Source of the DNA: Dactylorhiza incarnata
Taxonomy: Eukaryota > Streptophyta > Magnoliopsida > Asparagales > Orchidaceae
DNA length: 64,000 bases
NCBI GenBank assembly: GCA_033032865.1
Contig: JAWHQI010000201.1
Coordinates: forward strand, 1,675,501-1,739,500
Direction: 5' to 3'
Part shown: in pieces, positions 1,749 through 64,000 of the stretch
Layout of the letters: each line of letters begins with the position of its first letter
Numbering within the stretch: the stretch's first letter is position 1
Made by a program: the position numbers and the translations under genes
Notes under the pieces: model-generated
Told to the model about the DNA's origin: nothing
Databases searched by the model: none
The model's input: the letters and a program-made list of their open reading frames with translations, nothing else

Positions 1749-2590
1749 TGTTGAATCCGAAATCGCACCTCCGAAGGAAATCGGAGGCTGCGGGATGCCG
1801 GTTACTTTTTAGTTAGAGAGAGAGAGAGAGAGAGACCGCTAGCAGCGGTCAAGGCCAGACTTCGCCCGTCACGGTGAATGCCACTCCTGTGACGGGCTTT
1901 CCTTTGATTAAGAAGAAGCGGTTACAGCGAGTTACAGATGCAGGAAAGCAGAAGCTGGCCGGTCAGACAGGTCGCAAGACAGGAAACTCAAGACCGCAGC
2001 TCAGAAAAGCGAGCTCCTGGATTCGAGTGTGCGTGTCTTGGGAGCGTCGCCGTCCCCTATTTATAGGCTTGGGGGCCTGCCTGAATGGGCAGGGATAAAA
2101 TAACCGCCTGCCCGGGTACAGGAGAAACGGGCAGGCAGAGACGAGATACAAAAAGGAAAAAGAAAGAAGCCGCGCGACTTGGCGGCTTGTGCTTCCGATC
2201 TGTCTTGACCAGGGCGAAGATGCTGCGACCAAGGCGATGATGCAACCCGGGCAGTCTCCGACTTGAGACCGCGACGTGTCTTTCGGACTTGGCCTTAGTA
2301 GTCTTCATGGCAAAACCCGGACGGTCTCCAACCTGAGACGCGTCTTGCCCTTTAGACTTGGCCTTGGTAGTCTTCATGGCGCGACCCGGGCGGTCTACGA
2401 CCTGAGACCGCGGCTTGCCTTTTGGACTTGGCCTTGGTGATCTTCAATCTTTGGAGCGATCTGAATCATGTCAGACCGCATGGTTTGTGCTTGTTGGTGC
2501 TGATGGACCTTGTTAAATCTGAACCAGGTGTATCCGCAGACCGCCCGGTCTGCGAGTAGTGCTATTCGGAAGTGGTCTTCTAGGTTAACA
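1749..2590 (-). repeat. Tat-A 3' LTR
   Basis: This 842-bp LTR matches 24411-25256 along its length with scattered substitutions and small indels. On the plus strand it begins TGTTGAATCC and ends TTAACA, a short inverted terminal repeat. A GA microsatellite sits near 1814-1834. A TATA-like box in the symmetrical form CCTATTTATAGG lies at 2056-2067. The hairpin array lies upstream of that box in the element's own direction. Confidence 0.92.
2236..2560 (-). repeat. Inverted-repeat array in Tat-A U3
   Basis: Three units of about 70 bp each carry a dyad of the form GGTCTC, a 6-base loop, GAGACC; in the best copies the arms extend to GCGGTCTC and GAGACCGC. A separate perfect dyad at 2535-2554 has 9-bp arms, CGCAGACCG and CGGTCTGCG, with CC between. 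The 5' LTR copy (about 24895-25210) has the same layout. In element orientation the array lies upstream of the TATA-like box at 2056-2067. Confidence 0.8.
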
Positions 2591-2674
2591 TAATCCCCGC
2601 ATATTTTCTGATATTGGAGAGATTTCGAAAATATTAGTTCTAGCCGGGAGACCGCGCCCGCCTTGTACTCATGC

Positions 2675-2682
2675 CTATAAAA
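2675..2682 (+). promoter_or_regulatory. TATA-like box before antisense ORF 1
   Basis: CTATAAAA on the plus strand lies about 100 bp upstream of the ATG at 2784, just outside the Tat-A 3' LTR. It faces opposite to Tat-A transcription. It would suit an independent promoter for the antisense ORF. This is inference from position only. Confidence 0.45.
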
Positions 2683-2783
2683 TTGCCTGAGAGCTCTCCA
2701 CTTTGCATAATTCCTCTGAGATCACGGGTCGCTACTCGCCGATTGCGGTTAGAATTTTTCAGGCCGGCACCTCTTTGATCAGA

Positions 2784-3713
2784 ATGGATTTCTTTGATTC
2801 CCTTCAAACCCGTGTGGATAAGGGCAATGAACGAAAGAAGGATGAAGAACGGAAGGAGAAAGATGCCAGGAAAAGAAGAAAGGGTCACCGGTCTGAGAAG
2901 ACCGGGCGATCTCCCAAGGTGGAAACTTCTATTGATAAAAAGAATACAGATGGAGAAAAGACCGCAGTGGAGAGAGCAGAAGAATTCAAAGCTGCCGAGG
3001 AGTTAATGGATAAAAAGAGGGTTGCGGAGGAAAAAGAAGCATGGGCGAAGGCCGTGGAAAAAGAGGCGGCGATAGCCAAGGCCGCGAAGTTAGAGGCGGC
3101 GAGAGCCAAAGCCGCGGAGGTAGAGGCAACGAGAGCCAAGGCCGCGGAGGTAGAGGCGGCGAGAGCCAAGGCCGCGGAGGTAGAGGCGGCGAGAGCCAAG
3201 GCCGCGGAGGAAGAGGCGGCGAGAGCCAAGGCCGCGAAGGTCTTATTATCTGAAGAGAAGATCGCCAAGAAGATGGTGGCAGAACTCGGCACAGACCATT
3301 CTACCCCTGCTTTTGTCATGGAGTTTACTCCGTCGGGGACTCCTCATTTAAAGTTAAATGTCGAGGAAGAAGGGGAAGTTGTCTCCTCTAAGCCGGATAG
3401 GTTTTCCTCCTTGCCGATGGTGATCCATGATGATGACTCCAGCCCTTCAAAGCGGATCACTCCAGAATCGGGGAAGAAGAAGAGAAAAAGAGGCCATTCA
3501 ACGACAGAGCGAATTGCCAGGAAGCTTCAGAGTTTGAAGGCCAAAAATAAAGCCTTCAAAAAACCAACAGCGGCCTGTCTTCAAAGCGACTCACGCGTGA
3601 AGGAGGAGCCTGACGAGCCTGACCCCCCCTTGTCCAATCGGACGGTCTTATTCCGTATTCCGCAAACAGTATGTCGATTGATGGTATTTTCAGGTGAATG
3701 GACGATTTCGTGA
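2784..3713 (+). CDS. Tat-A antisense ORF 1, first part (charged coiled-coil protein)
   Basis: This ORF lies opposite to gag-pol in Tat-A's 3' region, where Tat elements are known to carry extra antisense ORFs of unclear role. From the ATG at 2784 the protein is very rich in Lys, Glu and Arg. A central stretch is built of about six 10-residue repeats of the type AKAAEVEAAR, encoded by a 30-bp tandem repeat at about 3064-3240 and expected to form a long helix. A basic segment follows (KKKRKRGH, a possible nuclear signal). I see no PF04195-type domain in it, although the second antisense ORF has one, so this may be a copy that lost its N-terminal part. An upstream ATG at 2703 is in the same frame. 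The frame ends at 3713, but likely related exons follow. Confidence 0.55.
   Translation: MDFFDSLQTRVDKGNERKKDEERKEKDARKRRKGHRSEKTGRSPKVETSIDKKNTDGEKTAVERAEEFKAAEELMDKKRVAEEKEAWAKAVEKEAAIAKAAKLEAARAKAAEVEATRAKAAEVEAARAKAAEVEAARAKAAEEEAARAKAAKVLLSEEKIAKKMVAELGTDHSTPAFVMEFTPSGTPHLKLNVEEEGEVVSSKPDRFSSLPMVIHDDDSSPSKRITPESGKKKRKRGHSTTERIARKLQSLKAKNKAFKKPTAACLQSDSRVKEEPDEPDPPLSNRTVLFRIPQTVCRLMVFSGEWTIS
3061..3240 (+). repeat. 30-bp coding tandem repeat
   Basis: About six copies of a GC-rich 30-bp unit (GAGGCGGCGAGAGCCAAGGC plus 10 bp) encode the AKAAEVEAAR helix repeats of antisense ORF 1. The copies keep the frame and differ by few bases, so they expanded recently. Confidence 0.8.
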
Positions 3714-5450: not shown

Positions 5451-5483
5451 CAACCATTACGGAGACGTATTCATGTTCTTGAA

Positions 5484-6599
5484 ATGGCGCGAGCTGAGAG
5501 CAAGTCGAAGCGGTGTGAGAAGATCCATGCGGTCCGAACTGAAGCGGCCTCTGCTTTTAGATCAGCCGATCATAAAGAATATCACTTAACTCAAGGCGAG
5601 ATGGACGACTTTATTAAAGAGTATATGGTTGGAAGTAATCTATCAGCCCGGCTTCCATATCGTGACGAGCGGATTAACTCCTCGTCTTCCACAAAAATTG
5701 CCATCCCCATTGACCACTTCAAATACGGCTTCAGGTTCCCTCCGCCACTCGAGGTTATTGCTATTTTCGATCACTATGGGGTTGTGCCCGGACAACTCCC
5801 GCCGAATTCCATTGCCTCTATCTATAGCTTTATCTCGTATCTGCGGTCAGAGCGAGTCAAGTTTTCGATTTCCTTGTTCCGAAAATTCTTCTCCGTGCGG
5901 TCTACTTCGGACGCCAGAACCTCCATTTTCAGAGGTCATATTTATTTCAGATGCTGGGGGATGAAAGTTATCAATCTCGCGAACAAGGTGGCGAGTTGGT
6001 CTGAGCGTTACCTAATGTTCGAAGGCCCCCTTGGGTTACTGCAAGTCAGCTCGCAGATGAGGACTACGGCGGATTTTCAATCGGTCAAGCTTGGAGAGGC
6101 CGAGAAAGAGATCTTCGAATCTCTTGAGAATGAGCGGCTTAACGGGAATTATTTCATTCCGCTGTTCGCGGAGCTGGTAGACGTCCGCCATGAGGATAGT
6201 AAGCTTTTCTCAACTCGTCATTCTATAACCGTGCGGACTTGTTTTTCTAAGCTTTCAGTCTTTGCAGCTGCCACCGTTGTTCCTCTGAATAAGCCGGTCA
6301 GTCCGGCCGACCCGGTTTTAACCCAAAGGGAGAAGCGACAGAGGAAAAGCGACCCACAGTCATCCGATGAGGAGGGCCCGGCCTCCCCACGCGAGTTCGA
6401 GCTCCTACATTCTTGTAGCAATCCGCACGACCTGCGGGGCAAGCCGACAGTCCTTTGGCACAAGGATGGGGATTGTGTGCAAGTATCCACTGCTCTCCCA
6501 TTCTGGGGGAGCGACAAGATTAACCGACATGCACTAGCTGCTGGAGCTGCTATGTATGGCCGGAAAACTTTAAAGAGACTGAAGAAGATTATAGAATAA
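5484..6599 (+). CDS. Tat-A antisense ORF 2, 'putative gypsy type transposon' domain protein
   Basis: The frame of 371 codons starts at an ATG just after a TATA-like box. Residues of about 40-165 match the layout of the plant domain known as 'putative gypsy type transposon' (PF04195, Transposase_28): a short N-terminal helix (MDDFIKEYMV), a loop with F-x-FPPPLEV, then PGQLPPNS and YSFISYLR, and a GWYYF-like end (GHIYFRCWGM). That domain is well known from antisense ORFs of Tat elements; its function is not established and it lacks a recognised transposase catalytic triad. A Ser/Pro-rich linker and a basic helix follow. A stop at 6597-6599 ends it, yet the same frame continues with sensible sequence (6600-6758), so the copy is probably truncated by mutation. 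Confidence 0.7.
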   Translation: MARAESKSKRCEKIHAVRTEAASAFRSADHKEYHLTQGEMDDFIKEYMVGSNLSARLPYRDERINSSSSTKIAIPIDHFKYGFRFPPPLEVIAIFDHYGVVPGQLPPNSIASIYSFISYLRSERVKFSISLFRKFFSVRSTSDARTSIFRGHIYFRCWGMKVINLANKVASWSERYLMFEGPLGLLQVSSQMRTTADFQSVKLGEAEKEIFESLENERLNGNYFIPLFAELVDVRHEDSKLFSTRHSITVRTCFSKLSVFAAATVVPLNKPVSPADPVLTQREKRQRKSDPQSSDEEGPASPREFELLHSCSNPHDLRGKPTVLWHKDGDCVQVSTALPFWGSDKINRHALAAGAAMYGRKTLKRLKKIIE

Positions 6600-10833: not shown

Positions 10834-10843
10834 CCTTTTATAC
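10834..10843 (-). promoter_or_regulatory. TATA-like box of solo LTR
   Basis: The minus-strand string GTATAAAAGG lies just downstream, in minus direction, of the ATTCGG palindrome array at 10911-11215. Confidence 0.55.
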
Positions 10844-10910
10844 GCAAGGCATAAAATAGGCTATCCGCAGACTAGAGGAAAACAGAACATTTCTATCCAG
10901 ATTTACATTC

Positions 10911-11215
10911 GCCGAATTCAACTAATCGATATAACCGAATTCGACTCAGATTCGGCGAAACTATTTCGACGAATTCGTCTATATAAATTCGGCTATATAA
11001 ATTCGGCGAAACCCTTTCGTCGAACTGACATGATTCGGCTAAACCCTTTAGTCGAATCTGTTATAATTCGGTTAATCACATTAGCCGAATCTCATTAGTC
11101 GAAAACAACATTATTCGGTTAATCACATTAGCCGAATTTGACACAATTCGGTTAAACCCTTTAGCCGAATTTGTCAAGTATAAACCCATTCGTTTAAACC
11201 CTTTAAATGATTTCC
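10911..11215 (-). repeat. ATTCGGC-type palindrome array in solo LTR
   Basis: At least five inverted repeats of the form ATTCGGYTAA, short spacer, TTAGCCGAAT lie here in tandem, with related half sites. The clearest copy, 11145-11171, has 12-bp arms with one mismatch around CCC. Spacers alternate between CCC and CAC forms. Confidence 0.8.
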
Positions 11216-11240
11216 CGTTGAGACATTCTCAACTTAATTC

Positions 11241-11273: not shown

Positions 11274-11545
11274 TTGGGTTGCTGGGAGCTAGCGCAGGCG
11301 GTAGCACTACCGCCTGGCGCTAGCCATCTCGACGCTTGCAAGCGTCGAGACAAAGGCTGTAAGCGTCGACAGACGCTAGCATCGAGAAGGAAGCTATCGT
11401 AGGCGCTAGCGCTAGCGCCGGCGCTAGCCATCTCGACGGTTGCTAGCGTCGAGACGGAAGCCTTAATCGTCGACAGACGCTAGCGTCGAGACGGAAGCTA
11501 GCGCAGGCGCTAGCGCAAGCGCCGGCGCTAGCGCGCGATACAGAT
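11274..11545 (+). repeat. GCTAGC/GCGCCGGCGC palindrome array in Tekay U3
   Basis: Repeated dyads built from GCTAGCGC, GGCGCTAGC and GCCGGC alternate with hairpins such as CGACGCTTGC/GCAAGCGTCG. The array lies about 100 bp upstream of the TATA-like box. The 3' LTR copy is at 18074-18325. Part of the wording (CTACCGCC, GGCGCTAGC) is shared with the copia elements D and E. Confidence 0.85.
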
Positions 11546-12201: not shown

Positions 12202-12236
12202 CTACCGCCCGGCGCTAGCGCTAGCGCCGGCGGTAG
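12202..12236 (+). repeat. Long near-perfect inverted repeat in Tekay leader
   Basis: Two 17-bp arms, beginning CTACCGCC and ending GGCGGTAG, meet at GCTAGC|GCTAGC with a single extra C in the left arm. The same structure is present in the 3' LTR at 18988-19022. It lies downstream of the TATA-like box, so it would be in the transcript and could form a strong hairpin. Confidence 0.85.
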
Positions 12237-26135: not shown

Positions 26136-27606
26136 TGATGAGTCCGGTTTATATTGTGATTTCCGGGCTCATCTGGGTTGTTTATCTTTCCATTGCACTT
26201 CATTTACTGCTCATCTATGCTTTTATTGATAACATTTCATATTTTCAACTATAGTGCATTCCCTACCCTCTTCGTGGCGTGATTTCATTATGTATTACTT
26301 TATGCCTGTTCTGTGGATCCTGTGGTGTGCACGGATCAGTGGTCTTGTATGTTTTCATGCAGGTACAAGGATCATGTGAACGCTCAGAATGGTGTGGGGC
26401 GAATTTTGGCCTAAAAAGCCACAGATGGTGCGTTCTCCTTCGCGCACGATCAGGCGCACGACCACTGGTCGTGTGTTAATTCCCTTTACCAGACAGAGAA
26501 GTTCGCACGATCAGGCGCACGACCACTGGTCGTGCGCCATTGACCGTGCGTTAATTTCCTATCTTCCCCCTGCTGCAGGTTGACCACGCACGATCTTAAG
26601 CATTACTTCGCGCACGACCACTGGTCGTGCGGCACTGATCGTGCGCAGTGTTTACTCTGCTCTGTATTTAAAGACCGGCTCCGCGATTCTAGGGCATTCA
26701 GACAGTTTTGGGCGCGAGTTCTTCCGCAAGCTTTCACCGTTTTTCCTCTCCAAGCTCCATCCATCCATCTCCTTCCTTGGGAAAGCTTCTTCCATCGATC
26801 CTAAGCTCCATCAAGGGTTCCGGAAGCATTCCCCGCCATCTACAACAAGTATTTCAAGGTGTGGCATCTCCATTGGGCTAAGTGGAAGAGACCCATCTCT
26901 GAGAAGAAGACGGATGATGTTTGGAGGTAGTGATAGCCTCTGAACCCCGGAAGCAACCATGAATTGAGCTCGGAGGAGGCGTGACGACCCCCCATTTTGG
27001 CCAAGATCTACGATGAGGCTTCTCATCTCGTGGTTTCCTCTACCCTCTCTCTTTTTGGAAATGTATTCTTAATTGTTGTACTGAACTAGATTAATCTCAA
27101 TTTTTCTATGAATGGAAGCTTACTCTTGTTGTATTCTTCACTTGATGCTTTGCTGTGATGCGCTCCGCCCCCACACCAATTCCATACACACGTTCTAGCT
27201 AGCTCACTCTAGCAAAAGCTAGAGGTGAGAGTGAAGAGGTGCCTTCGACCCTCAAACACCATTACCACTCACTTCCCCCATTTGCTCACCGTCCATCCGC
27301 TAAACGAAGCACGACATCGCGGCCTGCAATAACCTCATCCACCAAGCAAAGCGGTGATTACGACCCACATAGTTAATATAGTTTTACTTCTTCTGGTCTC
27401 TACAAAACCAACCAAACTCCCTTTTATTAATTTAGTAATCCTCATAATTAATTTCCTAATAAGCAAATCATACTACCCAACTTGCGGTCCTTTGAGAATG
27501 ATATTTGGGGAATTTCTCCCTACTTTTATTACTTGACAACGACCGGTGCACTGCTATCGTACCGTATTTTGCGCTCGCTAATTAGCGGTGTTGAAATAAC
27601 GCGTCA
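26136..27606 (+). repeat. Athila 3' LTR
   Basis: About 1.47 kb from TGATGAGTCC (after the polypurine tract) to ACGCGTCA. The TATA-like TATTTAAAG lies at 26665-26673, right after a palindrome array. The downstream end contains GACAACGACCGGTGCACT, close to the wording of Athila LTR ends. The right boundary is inferred from where the 95-bp array begins; the matching 5' LTR and the other TSD copy are outside the window. Confidence 0.7.
26440..26650 (+). repeat. GCACGACCA palindrome array in Athila U3
   Basis: Three copies of a dyad with arms GCGCACGACCA and TGGTCGTGCGC around a central C. The middle copy, 26515-26537, is perfect over 11-bp arms. The third is perfect over 10-bp arms at 26611-26631. 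Related GCACGATC half sites lie between them. The array ends just before the TATA-like box. Confidence 0.85.
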
Positions 27607-27709: not shown

Positions 27710-29316
27710 TGATGCGCAAAACTATATTTGCAAATGACAACGACAAGTGTACCGTATCGAAAATAGTATAGGTTTATACAACCAAGGTCGTATTAGACTC
27801 GGAGTGGTTGAGTACTCTTACTTTAAGAAAGTCTTTATTATTTTATCAATAAATCTTTGAGTTGGATTTTGCAATAAAGAGGATTTAAAATAATGATTAA
27901 CACAATAACAAAAGCGATTATCACTTGATCTTTGAATCACCTTAGAGATAAAAATAAGAAGAAAGAACAAAATCGCAATCTCTTAATAAAATAGCTTTGA
28001 CCGTGTAGATTCCTGAATTATGAACGCACCATAGGTCAAGGATACGCCCAACTAAGATTAGGAAATATCAACCGAATTCTCATTCTATAATCGATAACCT
28101 AATACTTGCTTTACCGGGTGAATCCCGCTATTGGCTTTTACTCAAATCCGGAAGGGTAACGTCATCCTCTCTCAAGGATTACATTCTACTCTTTTTTATC
28201 CTTGAGTGATCGATTCGTCTTACGAGCCTCTCGGCTAACTAAAGAACGAAAACAAGAACAAGAATTATATATCGAAAATATAATCTCGTTATCTTAAAAT
28301 CAAGGATAGATCTTAAGCTTTTTAGAAAAGAGAAAGAGCAATTCTAAATTACTTCAAAACTTTTATTATTCCTTGGATCATCTCGATCGAGTACTAATAA
28401 TATTTTAGTTACTCATGGAGATGGAGGAATCAAAAGACATAAAAGAGTACATAATAAAATAAGAGGAGAATAAGAAGCTAAGAGAACTAATTTTATTGAT
28501 TCGCAAATGAAAATTACAAAATAAGGAATTGAGATTACAAACTATTTAATTGAAATTACAATTGGAAGAATAAAAAGAAGTGCAAGAACTACAAAAACAT
28601 GAAAATAATACATGAAAAGAATAGTCTAAGTCCTAAAAATTCGTCCCTAATCAGCTGGAGAAGCTCCCTTTAAATAGCTGAAAATTTGGTGTTACACGCC
28701 CTTGGTCATGCCCGTGACCAAGGGGCATGATCAAAGCAGCAGCGGAGAGGGCGCCTTCTGGAGTAATAATGAGCATTACGTGTGTATCATGCCCCTTGGT
28801 CACGCCCGTGACCCTGGGGCGTGTAATCTTTAAAATAGGCTGATGGCGGGAGGCTTCGGCGGGAAGTGGCACGGGATGAGTCACGCCCGTGTACTGGATG
28901 ACACGCCCCCTGGTCACGCCCGTGACCTGGGGCGTGTAATTTTAATTGACGTGGTAGGCTTGTTCTGATCGAAGGAGTCGGGTCATGGTCGTAACCATTG
29001 GTCACGCCCCCAGGTCACGCCCGTGACCTAGGGCGTGGACTTGGCAAATCTTCACGGAATGCGCCCGGGGTGGTGGAATTGGGTCTGAAACACATCAAGG
29101 CTGTCGCGCCCCTTGGTCACGCCCGTGACCTTGGGCGTGTATTTGACAATCTTGCTCAGAGTGCCCAGAAAACCTGAAAAATATAGAAAACCTTAAGTTA
29201 GTTTATGAAATCAAAAAGGGAATGATTTATACTATATAATTCATATAATTTATATCATTTCATATTAAAAATATATTAAAACTATACTAAAAGATGAGTA
29301 TATAAACTACTCATCA
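27710..29316 (-). repeat. LARD 3' LTR
   Basis: 1607 bp. The TATA-like CTATTTAAAGGG (minus, 28678-28667) lies directly downstream of the palindrome array in element orientation. It is near-identical in layout to 32206-33811. Confidence 0.92.
28690..29140 (-). repeat. GGTCACGCCCGTGACC palindrome array in LARD U3
   Basis: About five copies of GGTCACG CCC GTGACC occur. Several are nested inside an outer pair CACGCCC ... GGGCGTG, so the full dyad reaches about 34 bp. One copy near 28707 has a C-to-T change (CATGCCC). The other LTR repeats the array at 33185-33640. Confidence 0.85.
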
Positions 29317-37264: not shown

Positions 37265-38579
37265 TGTTGGAACATGCTTTCCGCATCTCTTAGTTTGACA
37301 ATAACAAATCCTATTGTAATTGATCATACATGCATTGTGTTTATATTGTGCAGGATCTTCAACATTCAATCCCCAAATGACTGTGAAAAAGAAAGACCTC
37401 GAAGCGACATCAGGATGATTCTTTGTTGATACCGCAGAGCATTAGAACTACCGCTGGCGCTAGCGAATCGACAAAATAGTGTTCGACGAAAATAGATGTC
37501 GTTCGACGAAAATGCCATTCGACGAAATTGTGTTCGACGAAAGTAGATGTCCTTCGACGAACTGGCGTTCGACGAAATGAAACCAGCGTTCGATGAAATC
37601 TGAGGACGTCCGACAAAATTGAGTTTGATGAAATGAAAACGGCGTTCGACGAAATGAGATGTGTTCGATGAATTGTGAAGACGTTCGACGAAATGTGTTC
37701 GATGAAAGGAGAGGTCGTTCGACGAAAATGGCGTTCGACAAAATAAGCTGTTGTTCGACGAAAAGAGATGTGCTCTACAGCGGAGCGTTAGAACTAACAC
37801 TGCGCTAGCATAAATGGAAACAATTGACGAGAAGGAAACATTGGAGAAACAGGAATGTCGACGGGATGCTATTTTGGCAAGTACTATCGCGGCGCGTTAA
37901 GGACTAACCCACGGCGGTAGCTTTTGGAATCCTTCCGTCTGCATGTGATTGAGGAGCAAATATGGAAGGAGATATTGGCTGAAGGAAGGTTATCTCACTA
38001 TCGCGGAGCATTAGCGTTACCGCGGCGTGCTAGTCGGAGCTCAAGGTTTGGCGGTCAAAAGTTTCCTAAGTTGCCACGATCCGTGTGCTTGATCATTGCC
38101 TAATGTGGCTACCGCGGGGCGGTAGTACTACCGCAGGCGGTTGCGGCTGATTCTATTTAAAAATGTGCGCCTCCTCCGTTGTTGCTTGCTGTTAGAGAAC
38201 GAATTGAAGCCATATATTCAAAGCACTCGTGAGAGCCTTCTCCAAGCGGCCCGAAGAACTCCGTCAAGGTTCGTGAACGCACAGAACTTGAAGACCGATC
38301 CGATCTCATCTACATCGACAACAAGTTCTTCTTATTGAGGGAGTTTCTAGTTTCTAATTGTAACCTTTATATCTTTTGTTTCGGTAGAGGAATTCGCCAC
38401 ACGGCGACTAGGGCCTTGCGGGGACTAGGTGGAAATTCGCCTCGTGTTGGCGACTAGGTCTAGGGAGTAGATCTAGGGATGCTCGAGGCCTTCTAGTGAT
38501 AGATTGGCTAGAGCGGCTTGAGGCCTTATCTAGGGAGAGATAGGCTAAAGCCAATCGGTCCTTGGGAGAAGGGTCAGTA
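37265..38579 (+). repeat. D 5' LTR, first part (split by E)
   Basis: It starts TGTTGGAACATGC and matches 53968 onward up to the E insertion. The TATA-like CTATTTAAAA at about 38152-38161 follows directly on the palindrome arrays. Confidence 0.9.
37436..38140 (+). repeat. TTCGACGAA and CTACCGC/GCGGTAG arrays in D U3
   Basis: About 16 copies of TTCGACGAA or single-base variants (mostly CG to TG or CA) lie at 37470-37775, spaced about 11-25 bp apart. They are flanked by larger dyads built from CTACCGC and GCGGTAG, notably at 38109-38143. The 3' LTR copy is at about 54134-54850. The TATA-like box follows within about 15 bp. Confidence 0.85.
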
Positions 38580-39690
38580 TGTTGGATCGGTCGGCGCCCT
38601 TAGAGGGTGGGGCGGGGGGTGAATAAGGGTTTTCAAAAACTTTAGATTATATTTATAAAAACTTTGAAATATTGCAAGATTAATAAAGAGACATCAAGTA
38701 AAACAATAATAAAGAGATATGCTTTATTAATATCAAATAATGTTTTACAAAACTTGATTTCTATGACGCTAGAAATCGGGGGCGACTAATAAAAATTCTT
38801 TTTCGTTTTCTATACCGACTCGTATCCCCACGAACCGGTTGGCTTTAGCCGATCTCTCCCCAGATACAGCCTCAAGCCGCTCTAGCCAATCTATCCCCAG
38901 AAAGGCCTCGAGCACCCCCTAGACCTAGCCTAGATCTAGTCGCCAACACGAGGCGAATTTCAGCCCTAAGTCCTACCCCAGACCTAGTCGCCAACACGAG
39001 GCGATTTCACTACCGTTTACAGAAAAGATATGAAATGAAAAGACAATAATATAAAAACTCCCACTATGTGGATCTCTTGGAGAAGTGGACGAAGGCCCGC
39101 AGAGTATGATCGTAGTCGATGCAGCCTTTCATCATGATGATGACGCGTGTTGAAATCTTCTCCACGGATCTCCTTAAGGATTTATGGAATTGTGGGAGTA
39201 TCGCTCTGAATCTTCCTCTCTCTGCTGAGGCACGAAGCTCTGGAGTTTGGGATTGGAGGAGGATAAAGAATTCGGAGCCAAAGCATCCAATTTATAGACT
39301 TAGCGCTACCGCCGGCGCTAGTAGCTACCGTCGGCGCTATCCCCGATTAAGAAACTTCTTGCGCGGTAGGATCTTCAATCTGCGGTAACGAGGCTTTCAT
39401 TCCTTCTGTGTTCACCGATACCGCCGGCGTTATCCGCTACCGCCAGACGTTAGCGCCTTCCATAACAGCTCCCGGAAATGTGCTCATCATCGCTAGCGCC
39501 TGGCGCTAGTTGCTACCGCCTGCGCTAGTGAGCCTCTTCGAATTTTGGCCTCAATTTTGGGGGCATTCATCATGTGTACTCCTTGAGTCATGTGGACCTA
39601 GTAAACCTGCAAACTTGAACACACAAGATCAGATACACATAGGATTTGTTATTCTCAAACCTAGGAGATGCGGATGACCATGTTCCAACA
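38580..39690 (-). repeat. E 3' LTR
   Basis: 1111 bp. Its palindrome array is at 39300-39535 (CTACCG, CGGCGCTAG). The minus-strand TATA-like CTATAAATTGG at 39297-39287 is directly downstream of the array in element orientation. Confidence 0.92.
39300..39535 (-). repeat. GCTACCGCCGGCGCTAG array in E U3
   Basis: Five or six dyads and half sites of GCTACCGCC / GGCGCTAGT and GCTAGCGCC. The same array is at 46085-46312 in the other LTR. The wording is shared with D and with the Tekay element. Confidence 0.85.
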
Positions 39691-42210: not shown

Positions 42211-43806
42211 CATAGAAAAGTTAAGTTCAGAAGAATAATTTTGATACTTGTTTTTGTTTTGTTTTATATTTTTGTAGTTGATTTTTACAAATAAAAGCAT
42301 ATTTTTGTAATTTGGCTTTTGTATTTTTGTATTTGATTTTTCAAAAAATAAAGAAAAACAGAAGTGCAAAAACTAAATAGAAAATATAGATTTATATATT
42401 TTTATGGATTTTTCGAATTTTAAAAAATACAGAAAATCGAACATGGACGCTAGCGCCTGAGGTAGCGCTAGCGCGGGAGACAGTAAGTGATTTTTGAGGA
42501 TATTGGAAATTTTGATTCTTGATCTTGATTAGGTGTCCCATTAGGAGTGTCTTGCTGAAATTGCAGAATTTAAGGAGATGTTTTTGATGGTTAAACACCA
42601 AAAAAAATGCATTTTTGAATTTGTGTTAATTTGAAAGATCTAGGACACCTAATCATCGCATGAAACATATTTTCTTATATCTTTATTATGATTTTTCAAA
42701 GGCTTGTGTTTACCAAAATAATGTAATAGATAGAGAATGTAGCCACAAGACATCATGTTTGAATTCACCAAATAAGCATGATTTTTTAATTATGAACTAA
42801 TGTATATGCGAAGAATAAACTAGGTATGCCCTAGATACCAATATCCAGACAATATGTCTTGACAAAAACTTATAAAACCTATCATAGACACAAATGTTCT
42901 TTAGGTACCAATGTTAGTATGATAAGTTTGAGATTAATGTTATGCCAAAGTTTGATAGTGTTTCAATTTATAAACCTAAAATGGAGTGACAATTCTATTT
43001 GGTTTGATATCAAAATGATTTATAGGTCTAAACTAGAAATAAATCACAATACACACATAATACACCATAACACCAACCATGGTAAACAATTATAATGTCA
43101 ATTGTTATCATATAATTTGTGATAGTTGTTTATAGATGATACTTGATATGGATTATGATTTTAGAGATGTTTAGCAAAAGATATCACTAGATCATGGTGG
43201 TGTTTGTCAATTCAATATTCATTATGAAGATAACTTTTTTCAACACATTTTAGTGATTTTCCTTTAATTAAGAATTTTGAATATATATATGTGATTTTTT
43301 GATAGGTGAACAATAGTGATGGTTTAGATCATGTTTGACATTAAGGAGAGAACACAATATAATTTTTTGTTGTGAACAATGACACCCATATTGAAAGTTG
43401 AGCTTTTATTTAAATCTTGAATTTTCTTTTAGATCAAGTTATTTCACTAAACCACTTGTTGGTGAAGGCTAAGAATCTTAATAGCCTAATAACCGGATTT
43501 AATTTGAAATATCTTATAGCAAATTTAGAGTTTGATTCATATGGATAATATAAGATATTTATAATAATAAAAGATAGGTCATCAAAATAAAAATATGATT
43601 TTGAATTTTGATCAAAAATGATTTATAAACTCATTAAGCTTTATGAGATAAAATCATATTTCCAATACTATATAGGATGACCATGGCATGATAGTTTAAA
43701 AAGAACACAAAAAGAAAAAGATAGAAAAGACATTAAAGCACATCATGAAGTAGAAATTTGTGTATTTCATTTTAATTGATTTCTACTTCATGCAAATGAT
43801 GGGATA

Positions 43807-47594: not shown

Positions 47595-48788
47595 TGAATA
47601 CGGAAAGGAGGAACACCTTCTGGAAATTTTTCTGAAAGGGCTCCTCATCCAAAAGAGAGAAGAAGGAAAAGTCCAGCGACGACGACGAAGAGCGGCCATC
47701 TCCCGAGTGCTTCCACTGTAGGAAGACCGGGCATATTAGAAGTCAATGCCCAAAATTCTTAAAGGAGCAAGAAGAAAAAATGACTTAAAGGAAAGGAGAA
47801 GAAGAAGGTCTTAAAAGCTGCAACATGGGATGACTCTTCCTCCGGGTGCTCAAGTGAATCAAGCTCAAGCGATGATGATGAGGCAAACTTGTGCCTTATG
47901 GGGAAAAGCAATGAATCAGCCGATGACGAGTGCAGTGTCCAAAGCGACACTGAGGTAATCCCTTCTAACTATGATGATCATTATTCTGAATACTTAAAAA
48001 CATGTAAATCTTTTGGCAAAACTTTAAATGATCTTGATCTACTTAAAACTGAAAATAAAATCCTTCTAAAACAAAATCAAAAATTAAATAAGTAAGTTTT
48101 TTCCTTGGGAAAGGAGATGGAGTCTTGCCAAAGGAATGATGATCTTTTGGCAAGGACTAGCAAACTTAAAATTGATCTTTCTAATGCTCTCTCCAATATC
48201 GAATCACTCGCGAAACAAAAGAGAGACTTAGAAAGAAATTTGAAACTCTCACTTTCTAATGTTGAAAATGAAAAGAAAAACTTTGCAAATAGATGCGGAA
48301 ATTTAGATAGTGAAAATTTTGCATTAAAACCCCAAATCCATGACCTTAACTTAGCCATAGAAAAATTTGGTGTTGGCCAGAAAAGTCTTGATATGATTTT
48401 GGCCAACCAAAGGCATGGTGGTGCAAAAATTGGGCTAGGTTATGTCTCTGCTAGCTACCGCCCGGCGGTAACAGTTAGCGCTGGCGGTAGTAACAAAACT
48501 CATTATTCATGTAATGATCATAAATCTGGAATTTTTTCTGCTGATTCCCGTCCTCCAGCAAGAGTCCACAACAAAAACGGAAAAAGGTCTCAACCCCTTT
48601 TGTGTTATGTGCCAAGTGTCATCACTTCGGGGATACCTTGGACTCTTGCAGGAAGAAGGGTCGATGTACCGTCAAGCAAATTTGGGTGCCTAAGGTTTCC
48701 ACCTATTCTATGTGAGGAACCACTTGGGTATCCAGATCTTTACTCTCATCTTCTTGTTAGGTATGTTGGCAGGCTAAGGAAAAGGAAG
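47595..48788 (+). pseudogene. D gag C-terminal part, zinc knuckle and coiled coil
   Basis: A zinc knuckle, CFHCRKTGHIRSQC (CX2CX4HX4C), lies at 47708-47749. An acidic Ser-rich stretch follows (47889-48095), then a coiled coil with NIESLAKQKRDLERNLKLSL and NVENEKKNFANRCGNLDSEN (48105 onward). The blocks lie in different frames, so several indels have hit it. A palindrome of the LTR type (TACCGCC C GGCGGTA, 48456-48470) sits inside the coding sequence. Confidence 0.8.
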
Positions 48789-51833: not shown

Positions 51834-53757
51834 TCGTGTAAAATCCGTGTTCTTATGACCTCACATGTCTAATTTCTGTACTGAATCACATTGTCACTAA
51901 TTTGCACAACTATATTCATAAGAAAAATTCTGAAAAATTTCACGTTTTCCCAAAAATTCGAGTTCTGTCACTAACGCCCAGCGATAGATGGGTACCGCTA
52001 GCGTTAGTGGGTATTTTCTGAATTTCCAGTTTCTTTTTCATTTTTTATTTTTTCAGTTCCTATTATTTTCTTTTAAAATTCTAAAAACAAAAAAAAACTA
52101 TAAAACAAATCAAAATCCAACCAAAAACATGCTTTGTGTTTCTATATATCAAAACCAACTACAAAATTGAATACCAATTAAAACAACAAAAACAAGCTTT
52201 ATGTTTCTATATATCAAAACCAACTACAAAATTGAAAAAAAAAACAATTAAAACAACAAAAACATGCTTTATATTTATTTTATTTTTTTGTTTTTGAAAA
52301 ACTTAAATTTTTTATAAAAACTGATGTGCTTTTCAATGTTTCAAGGATGATATGGTTTATCTTGCCTTGTTTAGAACGCAATGTTTCATTCTCTATTTCA
52401 AGTATCTTAATAACATTGTTTTGTATCATGCCTTGATCATTATCTTATGTGTGCTTTGAAATTAATTATAGAAATCATGTGTAGTATTGCATAGCATGCC
52501 TCAGTGTATGAGTAAATGGCTTATATTTGCTAATGATTTATTCACTCACATTTTTAATAAACTACATATGAATTTAATCTACTCTTACATGATTGTGTAG
52601 TGTAACAACATAATATTTTTGATAGGCATGCTTAGTTTTACCTACACCACAAGTAAAAATCTTTTTCATGCTCCTATTTTTGAAGAAGTATGTCATTTCA
52701 AAAATCTTTTGTTTGCACATACAAGTGAATTCGGAGACCTTTGTCGTTAAGCAAAAATTCAAATGAATAATTGACAAAGATAACTCCACCAAGCACTACT
52801 CACCCTCCTGATAAGTCTTAATGAGCATTGTGAGGTTGAGCACCTTGGAGAGAATTATAAAGTGCCTTGTTGCAAACATTTTTTTCACTACTTCTTATTG
52901 ATTACCGGATCACAAATAACTAAAATTCAAAATAATAATTGTGATTCCCCATGCACTACTTTGCACCCTGATAAGTCTTAATAAGCATTGTGTGTGCAGA
53001 GCACCTTGGTAGTTGTACTATTTTTCTATGTGCATTGAAAAACTTATATAGCTTTGTGGGTAGAAGTAACTCTAAAAACCCATTTTCAATAATACTGTGT
53101 TTATTCCATTATACATGTCACGTGTTTTGATTAGCTCATATGTATACTTTTATCAAAAACACTATTTTGTACACATCATTATCACTTGTAAGCCTTCTAC
53201 ACATGAGAATTGGAGTCTACTGCATATCTACATGTTTTCTCTAAATTCTTAAGTAAATGACTAGATAGCTTTGCATGATCAAAACAATGTACAAGTGTAC
53301 TTGATTTCTCAATTTATGACATTGTATTCTTCTATCTTGACTTGATATGTTGTATCATGCTTACATATTTTTTCCCACTACGCCATGTGTACTCTTTGTT
53401 GCTTACTTTTCAAAACAAGTGTATGGTTATGTTGCAACTGAAATCATTTTGTGTACTTAAATTACTACAACATCTATTTTTTATATCTAAAACTCTTAAT
53501 CATCTACTATGCTTCACCATTCTTATATAGATGTTCACTTCAAAAATATATTTCTTCATGCTTTCCACCACTTTACTACTTGTACGTTCGATCATGAATA
53601 CGTTTTTCCAACAAGTGGTTTCCTTATGACAATTTCTTCACATTCCTTTCTTTTTTCACTCCTTTTTCCTAAGCGTTTAACTATTTATCATGTTCATTCC
53701 CTCTCTACACATTTATTGCACACTTTAACGTTTGACTTTATCTCCACCCTCTTTTGA
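51834..53757 (+). other. D post-pol region, non-coding
   Basis: About 1.9 kb after RNase H without a supported gene, although Sirevirus relatives can carry an envelope-like ORF here. It holds a CACTAACGC/GCGTTAGTG dyad (51969-52009) and two hairpin modules (52789-53009). Confidence 0.7.
52789..53009 (+). ncRNA. Pair of conserved hairpin modules in D
   Basis: Copy 1 (52789-52848) has outer arms CCAAG and CTTGG and inner arms CACCCTC/GAGGTTG with one mismatch. Copy 2 (52949-53009) has inner arms TTTGCAC/GTGCAGA, all pairing if one U-G pair is allowed. Both keep the loop CTGATAAGTCTTAAT, then GAGC or AAGC, and ATTGTG. The module order matches element E. Confidence 0.65.
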
Positions 53758-53967: not shown

Positions 53968-55597
53968 TGATGGAACATGCTTTCTGCATCTCTTGGTTTG
54001 ACAATAATAAATCATATTGTATTTGATCATACTTGCATTGTGTTTATAGTGTGCAGGATCTTAAACATTCAATCCCCAAAGGAGTGTGAAAAAGAAAGAC
54101 GTCAAAGCGACATCAGGATGATTCTCTGTTGATACCGCGGAGCGTTAGAACTACCGCTGGTGCTAGCGATTCGACGAAATAGTGTTTGACAAAAATAGAT
54201 GTCATTCGACGAAAATGTTGTTCGATGAAATTGTGTTCGACGAAAGTAAATGCCGTTCGACGAACTGGCATTCGACGAAATGAAACCAGCGTTCGACGAA
54301 ATCTGAGGACGTCTGACGAAATTGAGTTCGACGAAATGAAAATGGAGTTCGACGAAATGAGATGCGTTCGATGAATTGTGAAGCCGTTCGACGAAATGTC
54401 TTCGACGAAAGGAGAGGTTGTTCGACGAAAATGGCGTTCGACAAAATAACCTACTGTTCGACGAAAAGAGATGTGCTCTACCGCGGAGCGTTAGCACTAA
54501 CACTGGCGCTAGCATAAATGAAAACAATTGACGAGAAGGAAACATTGGAGAAAAAGGAATGTCGACGGGACGCAATTTTGGCAAGTACTATCGCGGCGCG
54601 TTAAGGACTAACGCCCGACGGTAGCTTTTGGAATCCTCCCGTCTGCATGTGATTGAGGAGCAAATATGGAAGGAGATATTGGCTGAAGGAAGGTTATCTC
54701 GCTATCGCAGAGCGTTAGCGTTACCGCAACGCGCTAGTCGGAGCTCAAGGTTTGGCGATCAAAAGTTGCCTAAGTTGCCACGATTCGTGTGCTTGATCAT
54801 TGTCTAATGTGGCTACCGCGGGGCGGTAGTACTACCGCAGGTGGTAGCGGCTGATTCTATTTATAGATGCGTTCCTCCTCCGTTGTTGCTTGCTGTTAGA
54901 GAATGAATTGAAGCCATATTATCCGAGCACTCGTGAGAGCCTTCTCCAAGCAGCCCGAAGAACTCCGTCAACTTTCATGAACGCACAAAACTTGAAGACC
55001 GATCCGTTCGCATCTACATCGACATCAAGTTCTTCTTTTTGAGGGAGTTTTTAGTTTGTGTTTTGTTGTTAGTTTCTAATTGTAACCTTTATATCTTTTG
55101 TTTCGGTAGAGGAATTCGCCACACAGCGACTAGGGCCTTGCGGGGACTAGGGGAAATTCGCCTCGTGTTTGCGACTGGGTTTAGGGAGTAGGTCTAGGGG
55201 GTGCTCGAGGCCTTTCTGGTGATAGATTGGCTAGAGCGGCTTGAGGCCTTATCTGGGGAGAGATAGGCTAAAGCCAACGGGTCCTTGGGAGAAGGGTCGG
55301 TATATAAAACCAAAAGAGTTTTCATTGGTCGCCTCTTTCCAAGGGTCACTGGGAAAAGTTTTTGTAATCATAACTGTGTCATTTTAATATTAATGAAAAT
55401 ATGTTTGTTTCTTCATCTCTGATTCGTGCTCTCTGATTTTCATTGGTTTAACCTAAACGTATTTTCTCTGTCACTAACGCTGAGCGGTAACACTACCGCT
55501 GGCGGTAACAACAGAGAATTATTTTCTCTAAATAATCTCGAAAATTTTAAAACCCTTATTCACCCCCCCCCCTCTAAGGGCGCCTACAGATCCAACA
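53968..55597 (+). repeat. D 3' LTR
   Basis: 1630 bp, starting TGATGGAACATGC (one change from TGTTGG) and ending ATCCAACA. The TATA-like CTATTTATAG at 54857-54866 directly follows the arrays (54134-54850). A C10 run lies near 55563-55572. Confidence 0.92.
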
Positions 55598-60400: not shown

Positions 60401-60890
60401 CTCAGGTACCCAGTTGAGGAAACAGGGCAGTGGACTGGGATGTCCACTTTAGGCTTGTGTAACACACCCAACCTCGACCTTACGTACGCCCCTAAGAACA
60501 CATAGTGTATCCACGTACTATCTGGTAAGAAACACCTCTAACCCTCTATTTGAGTCTTCGCTCAGGTACCCAGTTGAGGGAAACCGGGCAGTGGACCGAG
60601 CTGTCCACTTCTAGGCTTGTGTAACACCACCCACCCTAGACCGTACGCACGCCCCTATGAACACACATGGTATACGCGTACTTTCTAGTAAGCACCACCT
60701 CTAGCCCTCTATTCGAGTCTTTGCTCAGGTACCCAGTTGAGGAAAACAGGGCAATGGACCGGGCTGTCCACTTCTAGGCTTGTGTAACACCACCCAACCT
60801 AGACCTTAAGTACGCCCCTAAAGAACACACCAGGATATCCACGTACTACTTGATACAACAACGCCTCTAAGTGAAACACCAAGCTCTTGG
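60401..60890. repeat. 162-bp tandem repeat, three copies
   Basis: Copies begin CTCAGGTACCCAGTTGAGG at about 60401, 60561 and 60724, so the period is 160-163 bp. Each includes GTCCACTT, GGCTTGTGTAACAC and ACGCCCCTA. No coding sense is seen. Confidence 0.85.
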
Positions 60891-61188: not shown

Positions 61189-61193
61189 AGCTT

Positions 61194-63263
61194 TTGTTGG
61201 TATCTACCCTTCTTCACAACCCCGCACTCTATTATTACTTCTGCTACTTAGGTGATTTATCCTTACAAAGTTTTCTTGCTCCAAATTTTGGAAGAATTAT
61301 CAGTCTGCTTCTGAATAGTAGTAATCCAGATTTTTTCAATCTTGGAAGAGGCATCCCCATCCACCACACAAAGAAGATCAACTCAACCATTTTCTCCAAA
61401 TGGGAAAGGGTAATTCCCAAGGGCTTAGGGAATGCTGGAGTTAGGGCTGCTGTAAGTGATGATGAGGCCCCTCTGCTTGATGAGCATAGGTCTATTGAAG
61501 CAGGGCAATCCTCCAGGGGGAGTGGACTTAGTCCAGCTCCTGCACAGGGCAGAGATGCACATGTTGAGGGGGAGTTTCCAACCCCAAGAGACATTGATGC
61601 AGGAAGTGGTGCTGCAGAAGATGTTCCTCCAAGTGATGCTGATCAAGTACCTCTTGATCCTGTTGATTTTGTTGTCCCTGATGCTGGTCTTGACTTGGAG
61701 GGCCCAGAGGATGCTGCTGATTTTGATGAGGCTCCTCAGCTGGAAGATTCAAGGAGATCACCTGCCATGGTTGATTCTCATTCTGAAGATCATGAAATCT
61801 TACCAGACTCTCCTAATGAGCAATCTGATTCTGTGGAGAGGGGCAGCTTTGGTGCCAGGCTGGAGTTGGCTAAGGAGATGTCTCTACTTGAGGGGGAGAA
61901 AGACCAGGAAGATATCTTCTTGGCTGAATCTGTTCTTCCTGAAGTCTTTCCTTCTGTGCTGCTTTTGCCTCCTCCAGAAGTTCTTGTGGCTAGGAGCACT
62001 TCTCCAAGGGCAACTGTGCTTGACAAGCAAGCACAGTCCTCAAGTTTTGTAGCTGATAGAAATTCTCCTGAAGAGGTTGAGACTGGTGATAGCTCTCACT
62101 CTTCTTTGCTGAAGTCCATAGCAGGGCTGCTAAAGGTTCAGACTGATCACTTTGATCAGTCTATCAAGCAAGTCTATAAGAAGATTGACTCTGTTGATAG
62201 TTCTCTGAAGAAGGAAATGGCTGAGATCAAGCATGAAATGGGAAGATTCAATAGTGATCAAGAAGCCTGGATGCTAACTGCAGGGAAAGCTTTGAATCAT
62301 ACAAATAAAGCAGTTGGGCATGCTCTTACCAACTTGCATCAGGTCAGTGAAGATGTTCTTCATCTCACCTCTGTTCATAAAGTTCTTAGTTCTGCTCATG
62401 ATCAAGGGATCTCTTACTTGGATGATCAAGTTGTAACTCAGCTGAAGAAATTATATACCCTCCTGCATGAAGATGTCATAAAGGGGGAGGAGAGTGTGGT
62501 ATCCAAGTTAGAAGAAAGTGCAAGCAAAATGAATGATTTGAATGAAAGTGTAGCTACTCAAATGCAAGATCTCATGGAAAACATCTTACAAAATGTTAAG
62601 GATGTCAATTGGTATACTCATGAAGCCCAAAGCTGGTTGTTCAAGCAAGTGGCTGGAATGCTTGGGTTTACTATTGTGGATAAAGGGTCAGTTTTTCCCT
62701 CATCAAGTGCTCCAGGACCCAGGGCTCCTAGTTTCTCTCCAAATCCTGTTGAGGATTCTGTTCCTGCTGATGAAGTCATTCCTGCTTCAACTTATCAAGA
62801 ATTTTGGGATGATCCATTCCCTGTTCAAGATCCTGACAACTCACATTTTGCTGAACCCTCTGAGAAGTCATTAAAAAGGAAGCTATTTGCTGATAAGCCA
62901 TCTGCTAAGAGGTCTAATCCACATAAGAAGATCAGAGAATTTTATGATAGGCCTCCTCCTAGAAACTTCCAAGAAAGTTGGAGTCCCATCTCCAAAAGTA
63001 TTATTCTCTCTGTTTTTGATAAAGTCAGCAATCAGAATGAAAAAGTCAGTGACCATTATAGTTCAGAAGAATGGAGCAAGTTTGAGAAGAGGACAAATGA
63101 AAGAAGAATTCACTTCAAGAATGGTGGATCTAAAGAGTCTGCTCCTGACAAATACTGGCCTAAGCCAAAGGCATTCTTTGAGAGAATGGATTCTGAACTG
63201 AAGAAGAAAGCTGAGGCAGTGGACAGAATGCTTGCAAAGAAGAAAGGCAAAGGTCATGAATAA
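61194..63263 (+). CDS. Sirevirus G envelope-like ORF
   Basis: An uninterrupted frame of 689 codons ends 200 bp before a polypurine tract and LTR, the place of the envelope-like ORF in some Sirevirus elements. The first 60 residues include hydrophobic stretches, but may be chance upstream sequence; the frame becomes convincing from about KKINSTIFSKWERV. An acidic Pro/Asp-rich region follows, then a helical region at about residues 300-490 with heptad-like spacing (QSIKQVYKKIDSVDSSLKKE, VVSKLEESASKMNDLNESVA). The basic C-terminus ends in ELKKKAEAVDRMLAKKKGKG. The role of such proteins is not established; no proof of envelope function is visible. No pol lies upstream, so G is truncated. Confidence 0.65.
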   Translation: MLVSTLLHNPALYYYFCYLGDLSLQSFLAPNFGRIISLLLNSSNPDFFNLGRGIPIHHTKKINSTIFSKWERVIPKGLGNAGVRAAVSDDEAPLLDEHRSIEAGQSSRGSGLSPAPAQGRDAHVEGEFPTPRDIDAGSGAAEDVPPSDADQVPLDPVDFVVPDAGLDLEGPEDAADFDEAPQLEDSRRSPAMVDSHSEDHEILPDSPNEQSDSVERGSFGARLELAKEMSLLEGEKDQEDIFLAESVLPEVFPSVLLLPPPEVLVARSTSPRATVLDKQAQSSSFVADRNSPEEVETGDSSHSSLLKSIAGLLKVQTDHFDQSIKQVYKKIDSVDSSLKKEMAEIKHEMGRFNSDQEAWMLTAGKALNHTNKAVGHALTNLHQVSEDVLHLTSVHKVLSSAHDQGISYLDDQVVTQLKKLYTLLHEDVIKGEESVVSKLEESASKMNDLNESVATQMQDLMENILQNVKDVNWYTHEAQSWLFKQVAGMLGFTIVDKGSVFPSSSAPGPRAPSFSPNPVEDSVPADEVIPASTYQEFWDDPFPVQDPDNSHFAEPSEKSLKRKLFADKPSAKRSNPHKKIREFYDRPPPRNFQESWSPISKSIILSVFDKVSNQNEKVSDHYSSEEWSKFEKRTNERRIHFKNGGSKESAPDKYWPKPKAFFERMDSELKKKAEAVDRMLAKKKGKGHE

Positions 63264-63462
63264 GCTGTGATTATCTGGATTCATGATGTTTTCTTTGCTT
63301 ATATATATATATACACATTTCTTTTGTGTTAAGTTAAAACATTCAGTCCTATTCTGTTTTTTCTTATATATTACTGCCTGGGTTATGCATTCTTATTTAG
63401 TATTCTTTCTGTGCAATTCAAGTTAGTGCCTAGGGTTATGACATCTTCAAATAGGGGGAGAT
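63264..63462 (+). promoter_or_regulatory. G 3' untranslated stretch and polypurine tract
   Basis: About 200 bp from the ORF stop to the LTR, with a TA microsatellite at 63299-63313 and the tract AATAGGGGGAGAT directly before TGTTGGG at 63463. Confidence 0.75.
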
Positions 63463-64000
63463 TGTTGGGTATTGTGTCCACAATCACCTTGATTTGAAGA
63501 TGCCCCCTAGTAAACTAAAATGAATTGTATTTGTATTTGATGACTTTTGTTTAGATGTGTTATGACAGGCCTTAATGCTAAGTGCTCACCAAAGTCAGGT
63601 CGCAATGGATCACCAAACACAGTTCTAGACAATGTAATCCCTCATTGTATAGAACAAAGTGTTGGTCCATGTGTAATCTCTCTTTTGGGGTGCACTTCAT
63701 ATACTCATAACTGAAGGCTTTCAAGGTTGAGGAGTGAAGCAGGTTTTCAGAAGAAAAGAAAAATTCTGCTGAGTCAATTCGTCGAGATGACTCGGGTCAT
63801 TCCGACGAATCCCGACGAATGCTGACAGAGGTCATTTTGGCTGGGTTGTGAAGAAAATTCTGCAGCCAAGTCCATTCGTCGAGATGACTCGGGTCATTCC
63901 GACGAATCCCGACGAATGCTGACAGAGGTCATTTTGGCTGGGTTGTGAAGAAAATTCTGCAGCCAAGTCCATTCGTCGAGATGACTCGGGTCATTCCGAC
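63463..64000 (+). repeat. G 3' LTR, cut by window end
   Basis: Starts TGTTGGGTATTGTG right after the polypurine tract. From 63777 it holds a 97-bp tandem repeat (copies at 63777, 63874 and 63971) containing ATTCGTCG ... CGACGAAT inverted arms. The TATA region and LTR end lie outside the window. Confidence 0.8.

Follow-up and report, generated by a model that had tools for sequence, protein, structure and literature searches.

The window analyzed here, 64,000 nucleotides of the orchid Dactylorhiza incarnata (contig JAWHQI010000201.1, positions 1,675,501 to 1,739,500), is plant DNA composed mainly of nested long terminal repeat (LTR) retrotransposons, with one element available for each of eight families. 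These are referred to as A, B (a solo LTR), C (Tekay), Athila, LARD, D, E and G, the names Tekay, Athila and LARD being labels of the initial annotation. That annotation had described in every family a cluster of short, CpG-rich inverted repeats, each with its own wording and, in the seven families with a visible TATA-like box, directly upstream of that box, and had proposed a shared pressure behind them. Analysis of these arrays, which lie in the U3 region (LTR start to TATA), revealed that C, a Ty3-type element, and D and E, which are of the Ty1/copia type, have one half-site and one architecture in common.

Comparison of the window with itself delimited the LTR pairs of A (1747-2590 and 24409-25256), C (11243-13092 and 18029-19880), LARD (27706-29316 and 32203-33811), D (37264-38580, resuming at 46476-46768, and 53967-55597) and E (38580-39690 and 45370-46475). 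The LTR ends of B and Athila are estimates, and no target-site duplication matched the ends used for B; the G LTR starts at 63463 as judged from its polypurine tract (PPT) and attachment site, and 63473 was taken in the enrichment test. The array of the A 3′ LTR (2236..2560, minus strand) is built of tandem units of about 69 bp with GCGGTCTC/GAGACCGC and has a sister in the 5′ LTR (24902-25106). B carries inverted repeats of the ATTCGGYTAA/TTAGYCGAAT type (10911..11215, minus strand), and the Athila-type LTR carries GCGCACGACCA/TGGTCGTGCGC (26440..26650, plus strand). The LARD array (28690..29140, minus strand; sister at about 33190-33630) holds five palindrome copies centred on GGTCACG-CC-CGTGACC, one of them with a mismatch, and that of the G 3′ LTR (63777..64000, plus strand) consists of tandem units of about 97 bp with ATTCGTCG/CGACGAAT and ends at the window edge. 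The remaining arrays are those of C (11274..11545, plus strand; sister at about 18070-18327), the D 5′ and 3′ LTRs (37436..38143 and 54132..54847, both plus strand), in which a TTCGACGAA direct-repeat array accompanies the CTANCGC quartets described below and in the 5′ copy lies between them, and the E 3′ LTR (39300..39535, minus strand; sister at 46091-46313).

The domains of C are of the Ty3 type (RVT_1, RT_RNaseH_2, Retrotrans_gag, the integrase zinc domain Integrase_H2C2 and the Tf2-like SH3 domain SH3_Tf2-1). The matches listed for its reverse transcriptase frame, the best 120 of 7991, were reverse transcriptase proteins with RVT_1 (PF00078), and the top identities among them, 79 and 80% (95 and 92% query cover), were to proteins of the orchid Platanthera zijinensis. 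D was assigned to Ty1/copia by its RVT_2, copia gag and integrase domains in Pfam; a protein search with its gag frame (48096-48827) gave no matches. E is related to D through gag (25% identity over 172 columns, E value 1e-15) and through LTR stretches found by self-comparison, and no pol was detected in it with the D pol proteins as queries; with a gag-like frame but no detectable D-like pol, E looks non-autonomous. It lies (38580-46475) nested inside the D 5′ LTR. A second nest occupies 10359-19929, where C sits within B and B within A, and reading of the flanks gave the target duplications CAAGC for C and CTATC for A.

The words that had been listed separately for Tekay (GCTAGCGC), D (CTACCGC) and E (GCTACCGCC/GGCGCTAGC) proved to be one half-site, CTANCGC, so that the description of each family as having its own wording does not hold for these three. 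The module is composed of four such half-sites in alternating orientation at steps of 9-10 bp, spanning about 36 bp. All 53 occurrences of the 8-mer GCTASCGC lie in C, D or E, and C holds 37 exact half-sites against 3.7 expected, D and E together 52 against 3.2, and the remaining 37 kb 3 against 6.6. Oppositely oriented half-site pairs with a gap of 0-4 and no more than one mismatch per pair numbered 77, all in C, D and E; 20 shuffles of the whole window gave 0.3 on average and never more than 2. Chaining of the half-sites in one LTR copy per family plus the internal sites yielded 19 rows, namely 15 four-site modules, one three-site module and three two-site fragments; every four-site module alternates, with start-to-start steps of 9-10 bp and a single exception of 11. 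Gap-free spacing histograms peak accordingly at 9-10 (opposite orientation), 18-20 (same) and 28-30 (opposite), the extra overlaps at 3 and 6 being a consequence of the word CTANCGC itself.

Eleven of the 16 module sites lie in U3: three in C (11289-11323, 11394-11427 and 11498-11531), five in the D 3′ LTR (at 54132, 54478, 54588, 54702 and 54813) and three in the E 3′ LTR (from 39306, 39418 and 39493). The other five are found in Tekay R/U5, downstream of the TATA box (12202..12236, plus strand; sister at 18989-19023), in D U5 near the LTR 3′ end, likewise downstream of TATA (55474..55508, plus strand; partial sister at 46649-46683), in the open gag reading frame of D (48455..48490, plus strand), where 36 bp are accommodated with the frame unbroken, in the D linker between RNase H and the 3′ LTR (51971..52007, plus strand) and in the E interior (the three-site module, 42450..42474, minus strand), showing that the modules are not exclusive to promoters. 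A separate palindrome with its own wording, TCTCGACGCTTGCAAGCGTCGAGA, stands between two Tekay quartets (11327-11350), and its unit score was reached by none of 1000 shuffles.

Local alignment of the arrays gave best scores of 58 for C-E, 38 for C-D and 32 for D-E, which were reached by 0, 0 and 1 of 500 dinucleotide shuffles, respectively. Since palindromes inflate similarity, two stricter nulls were used. Palindrome-preserving relabellings (84 comparisons) scored at most 26, against 58 and 38 for C-E and C-D, and among 10,000 simulated pairs of quartet arrays with random half-sites a score of at least 38 was obtained in 0.1% and one of at least 58 in none, the maximum being 50. The sharing among C, D and E exceeds these controls and stands. 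The B-D alignment was reached by 10 of 500 shuffles, among 28 pairs tested, and B has two TTCGWCGAA sites (10965 and 11016) where 0.03 are expected (2 of 5000 shuffles); a sharing of TTCGWCGAA between B and D is suggestive only. A pattern scan of viral contigs gave 32 loci, and no listed locus had matches at two places.

To the C, D and E modules, arm variation and module identity were also applied. Of 50 pairs of arms, 16 have complementary bases at N, the permutation mean being 19.6, and deviations at fixed positions are compensated by the partner in 4 of 35 cases (counted per pair, the inner half-site twice). The lack of complementarity at N and the few compensated deviations favor recognition by a protein over hairpin pairing in C, D and E, and arm covariation was accordingly rejected as hairpin evidence in these families. 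Mean module identity between families was 0.746 (C-D), 0.757 (D-E) and 0.806 (C-E), compared with 0.755 (sd 0.047) for modules having the same half-sites and random spacers. Within families it was 0.744 in D, 0.852 in C and 0.796 in E, the likeness above the null in C and E being what tandem duplication predicts. D above all keeps the half-sites and little else, as a protein-bound site would; covariation would be expected of a stem maintained for pairing.

In all eight families imperfect inverted repeats are more abundant in U3 than in shuffled sequence, bearing out the description of a palindrome cluster in each. When coverage by arms of 9 with at most one mismatch was compared with 200 shuffles for each of 13 LTR copies, no shuffle reached the observed value in 12 copies, and 18 of 200 did so in the E 3′ LTR. 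Perfect arms of at least 6 placed A, B, C, Athila, LARD and G at 0-3 of 200; D and E were not significant by this measure (D 5′ and 3′ LTR, 104 and 23; E 3′ and 5′ LTR, 40 and 13 of 200). Downstream of TATA, R/U5 (12 copies) is clearly enriched in the two Tekay copies alone (0 and 1 of 200 with arms of 9, and again 0 and 1 with perfect arms). Outside Tekay, R/U5 was weak or null with arms of 9 (E 5′ 11, A 3′ 19, E 3′ 22 and A 5′ 36 of 200, the rest at least 73), and perfect arms gave 7 of 200 for the A 3′ LTR. Most of the words first reported occur at their positions, but two of those given for E lack an exact match there: GGCGCTAGC has no exact copy in 39300-39535, where its reverse complement GCTAGCGCC has one.

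Isolated repeat units, one per array, were more palindromic than shuffles in 9 of 10 cases (0-31 of 1000); the TTCGACGAA unit of D, with arms of only 4 bp, was not palindromic beyond chance (434 of 1000). Much of the palindrome count is the tandem duplication of one unit, which undermines the independence of the palindromes. With stems sharing a 6-mer counted once, U3 remained clearly significant in B (4 of 200) and LARD (1 and 0 of 200), was borderline in C (32 and 23 of 200) and was not significant in A, Athila, D, E and G, and Tekay R/U5 (0 and 8 of 200) was more significant than Tekay U3. A scan of 639 overlapping 200-bp blocks (perfect arms of at least 6, 100 shuffles) gave a mean coverage of 18.6 bases against 13.3 when shuffled, 44 blocks exceeding all 100 shuffles. 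Among these 44 are the arrays of A (in its 5′ LTR), B, C, Athila and LARD, as well as the A interior (from 22901 to 24300), A R/U5, D U5, the D and E internal modules and further blocks elsewhere in the window, some of them AT-rich; at this setting they do not cover D, E or G in U3.

The TATA-like boxes used lie at 2065 (A), 10842 (B), 11651 (C 5′ LTR), 26665 (Athila), 28676 (LARD), 38154 and 54858 (D) and 39296 and 46081 (E), the box chosen being the match beside the array and the array edges those of the initial annotation or the ends of module chains. In each of the seven families having a box, the array precedes it when read in element orientation, as had been reported. The distance is not fixed, being 171 bp in A, 69 in B, 106 in C, 15 in Athila, 14 in LARD, about 11 in D and 4-10 in E, so that order alone is constant over a range of 4-171 bp. 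The TATA pattern had further matches: two within the B array, several in LARD, of which some lie upstream of its array, and others in the D 3′ LTR and E. In the C 3′ LTR it gave no match.

Sister LTRs were compared in a pool of five pairs, in which the alignment of repeats is uncertain. Transitions at CG sites amounted to 53/446 in arrays and 47/446 elsewhere, and the idea that arrays in general decay faster at CG sites, through stronger methylation, was rejected on these counts; in A alone, CG decay was clearly higher in the array (6/55 vs 3/75).

The Sirevirus precedent that had been put forward for palindromes near the TATA box is real: in PMC2829016, palindromic CpG-rich motifs before TATA are described as Sirevirus-specific and absent from the classic elements compared, and multiple PPTs and an inverted repeat abutting the terminal PPT are further marks of these elements. 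Three PPT-like sites precede the 3′ LTR in D and six in E; the PPT of E is adjoined by an inverted repeat of 18 bp with one mismatch, and that of D was read by eye, the program giving a different match. The terminal PPT of D and E is not followed by the AT/TG attachment site, TT/TG being found at the 3′ LTR, and we therefore term them Sirevirus-like only. G has the PPT AGGGGGAG-AT-TG at 63453-63464 and a flanking 11-bp perfect inverted repeat, its further PPT-like sites falling in a 690-aa frame. Judged by these sequence marks, G would be a Sirevirus and D and E Sirevirus-like, making three of the eight families. The U3 of the D 3′ LTR has 15 overlapping half-site pairs and that of the E 5′ LTR 8, where a Sirevirus RM array asks for at least 8 motif copies; read as quartets they are 5 and 3, that is, 10 and 6 non-overlapping palindromes, plus the internal ones, and the TATA-like box is about 10-11 bp from the last module. 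C departs from RM arrays both in its Ty3-type domains and in the cluster start, which is expected 200-400 bp inside the LTR; its first quartet begins 42 bp in, those of D and E about 162 bp.

Heat shock elements, which are stepped at 5 bp rather than the 9-10 bp seen here, offer a second comparison. Those in the ONSEN LTR (nTTCnnGAAn, as given in PMC3907296) are alike in consisting of inverted half-sites for an oligomeric (trimeric) host factor and unlike in the half-site, which here is a different one of 7 bp containing CpG; in the D TTCGACGAA unit three bases rather than two separate TTC and GAA. The Sirevirus RM boxes (Bousios et al. 2010, PMC2829016) resemble the present arrays as many short CpG-rich palindromes in U3 just before TATA and also in the linker, and by eye a CGG-CCG core is readable in the words of A, B, C, D and E but not in those of Athila, LARD and G. 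They differ in that the arrays here also occur in Tekay, Retand, Athila and LARD and that the C/D/E unit is a four-half-site module. The palindromic cis-region of maize Sireviruses (Bousios et al. 2016, as described in PMC5311732 and PMC10760457) is likewise an LTR-regulatory palindrome cluster with small-RNA hot spots, reported to be fast-evolving and confined there to one lineage; here several lineages at one locus are involved, with a code common to two superfamilies. In the literature partially covered, no description was seen of arrays like these in LTRs of Tekay, Athila, Retand or LARD, or of a single module common to Ty3 and Ty1 LTRs; PMC6911290 treats insertions and palindromes with respect to target sites and does not deal with LTR arrays. 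The published Sirevirus array type is extended by the arrays of Retand, Tekay, Athila, LARD and the solo LTR.

A was identified as a Retand element by its Ty3 pol and an antisense TRP28 frame between pol and the 3′ LTR: its minus strand has gag, RVT_1 and RNase H matches in Pfam, and the TRP28 (PF04195) frame (5451-6599, plus strand) is antisense to gag and pol, an arrangement that marks Retand elements according to PMC11963269, where DNA binding by TRP28 is predicted. Near 2676 (plus strand), a TATAAAA-like site lies just past the A array, which may thus sit between two divergent promoters, and 30-bp tandem repeats at 3048-3241 fall in a plus-strand frame and encode a repetitive stretch rich in Ala, Glu, Arg and Lys. 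Elsewhere, LARD appears inserted into a 95-bp tandem array (27607-27709 and 33812-34308), and neither the LARD frame 30916-31842 nor the Athila-side frame 42-545 had a Pfam match. Tandem repeats of 163 bp (60401-60848) lie upstream of the 690-aa frame (61191-63263) ahead of the G 3′ LTR; this frame had no Pfam match and one relative was found for it (27% identity), and no pol related to that of D was seen for G within the window.

The explanation we favor, with modest confidence, is that the U3 arrays serve as enhancers or control regions read by oligomeric DNA-binding factors, one of which would be exploited by unrelated elements. Short inverted half-sites, often tandemly multiplied, would be read beside the core promoter by dimeric or higher-oligomer proteins, in C, D and E through the one common code of four alternating CTANCGC at 9-10 bp steps, and the reader would most likely be a host factor conserved enough to serve Ty3 and Ty1 elements alike, probably activating rather than repressing them. 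Selection on the half-sites in live families would keep the code, with the N base and most spacers drifting. The same reading would presumably extend from C, D and E to the other five families. Of the shared pressures initially proposed, namely a dimeric factor, recruitment of silencing, or cruciform or hairpin formation, a shared factor is supported by the common code of Tekay, D and E, and the hairpin or cruciform version is weakened for their modules.

Hairpins nevertheless deserve separate weighing. The genomic RNA carries U3 at its 3′ end, and stems diced to small RNAs could draw silencing, as proposed for maize Sireviruses, for which small-RNA hot spots over the palindromes are reported (PMC5311732 and PMC10760457). 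Folding of whole-array RNAs against 60 or 100 shuffles each showed that those of six of the eight families beat every shuffle, with z of -4.5 and -4.4 for A, -5.4 for B, -8.6 and -7.7 for C, -12.6 for Athila, -5.6 and -6.3 for LARD and -7.1 for G, and by eye the units of B have pairs altered on both sides. D and E, however, were hardly better than shuffles (z -1.6 for the D 3′ and +0.3 for the D 5′ array, -1.8 for both E copies); the five U3 modules of D folded singly were matched by 1, 5, 9, 56 and 72 of 100 shuffles, one being clear. Over the first 300 array bases, A (-3.4) shows no advantage over the remainder of its LTR (-3.6), and LARD gave -2.0. The strong folding of C must be reconciled with its absent arm covariation, and silencing brings the element no gain, so that hairpins would explain a cost and not the upkeep of the arrays. 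We consider them an unlikely primary explanation; in the six strongly folding families they may yield small RNAs as a by-product or in an additional role.

Sequence exchange, with the module passing through template switching or gene conversion from a Sirevirus-like LTR to Tekay or in the opposite direction, would make the likeness one of descent and not convergence. It draws on the best C-E match (36 of 40 columns), on an identity of 0.92 between the 3′ LTR copy of one E module and the module C1, a pair picked as the best, where the null maximum over 1000 pairs was 0.919, and on a Ty1-to-Ty3 LTR transfer proposed for RLG_Quinta of einkorn (PMC11302176). Mean C-D and C-E identity nevertheless lies near the half-site-only null and local matches end at the module boundary, and we regard exchange as quite unlikely to be the whole account, noting that an old exchange followed by drift is compatible with the data and with the control-array explanation. 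That the arrays arose without selection, by quasi-palindrome correction and tandem slippage during reverse transcription or replication, is very improbable. Tandem repetition fits such an origin, as do the non-CG sister-LTR differences, commoner in arrays (98/1552 vs 141/4263), but D runs against this trend (0.051 vs 0.064 in the rest); moreover, matching arms would be predicted rather than a fixed half-site, the arms of C, D and E mismatch at N, and one code in two superfamilies and the U3 bias are left unexplained. As a further alternative, VANC proteins of VANDAL elements counter silencing, and element-encoded DNA-binding proteins such as the Retand antisense TRP28 product could target the arrays to the same end. 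A encodes TRP28, which is predicted to be DNA-binding in Retand (PMC11963269), and most families have words of their own, as expected of a private code; yet TRP28 binding to the A words (GCGGTCTC) is putative, C, D and E have one code in common, and their longer frames, those scanned, hold no extra common protein, making this improbable as well.

Several points weigh against reading the arrays as sites of a shared factor. The modules within C (0.852) are more alike than half-sites alone would make them, the D arrays are loose, with many half-sites carrying a mismatch, and no known promoter is located at the modules of gag, linker, U5 and R/U5. The half-site counts come from the very data in which the half-site was discovered, and selection of modules by half-site likeness leaves fewer deviations visible; selection in live families is argued from one element per family, and the array RNAs of six families fold better than every shuffle. 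None of 12 distinct published RM consensi clearly matches. The RM of the wheat element Inga was rejected as the module, AGCGGTASTACCGCT having no match at up to three mismatches and the GCGGTA core alone being alike; HOPIE was the sole consensus above the largest of 10 shuffles (9 against 2.5, maximum 6), 6 of its 9 matches lying outside LTRs.

More specifically, a single host-read quartet code may have been adopted by both superfamilies in one plant lineage, at promoters and at internal and coding sites, with co-regulation by one tetramer-binding factor; on the sequence evidence we put this forward tentatively, as a possibility that may well prove wrong. If one factor does read the module of Ty3 and Ty1 elements, a single switch could co-ordinate retrotransposon activity in this plant, and the factor would be findable with one probe. 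A feature described as Sirevirus-specific would become more general, and the module would provide a clean test, protein binding versus hairpin silencing, for why LTR palindromes persist.

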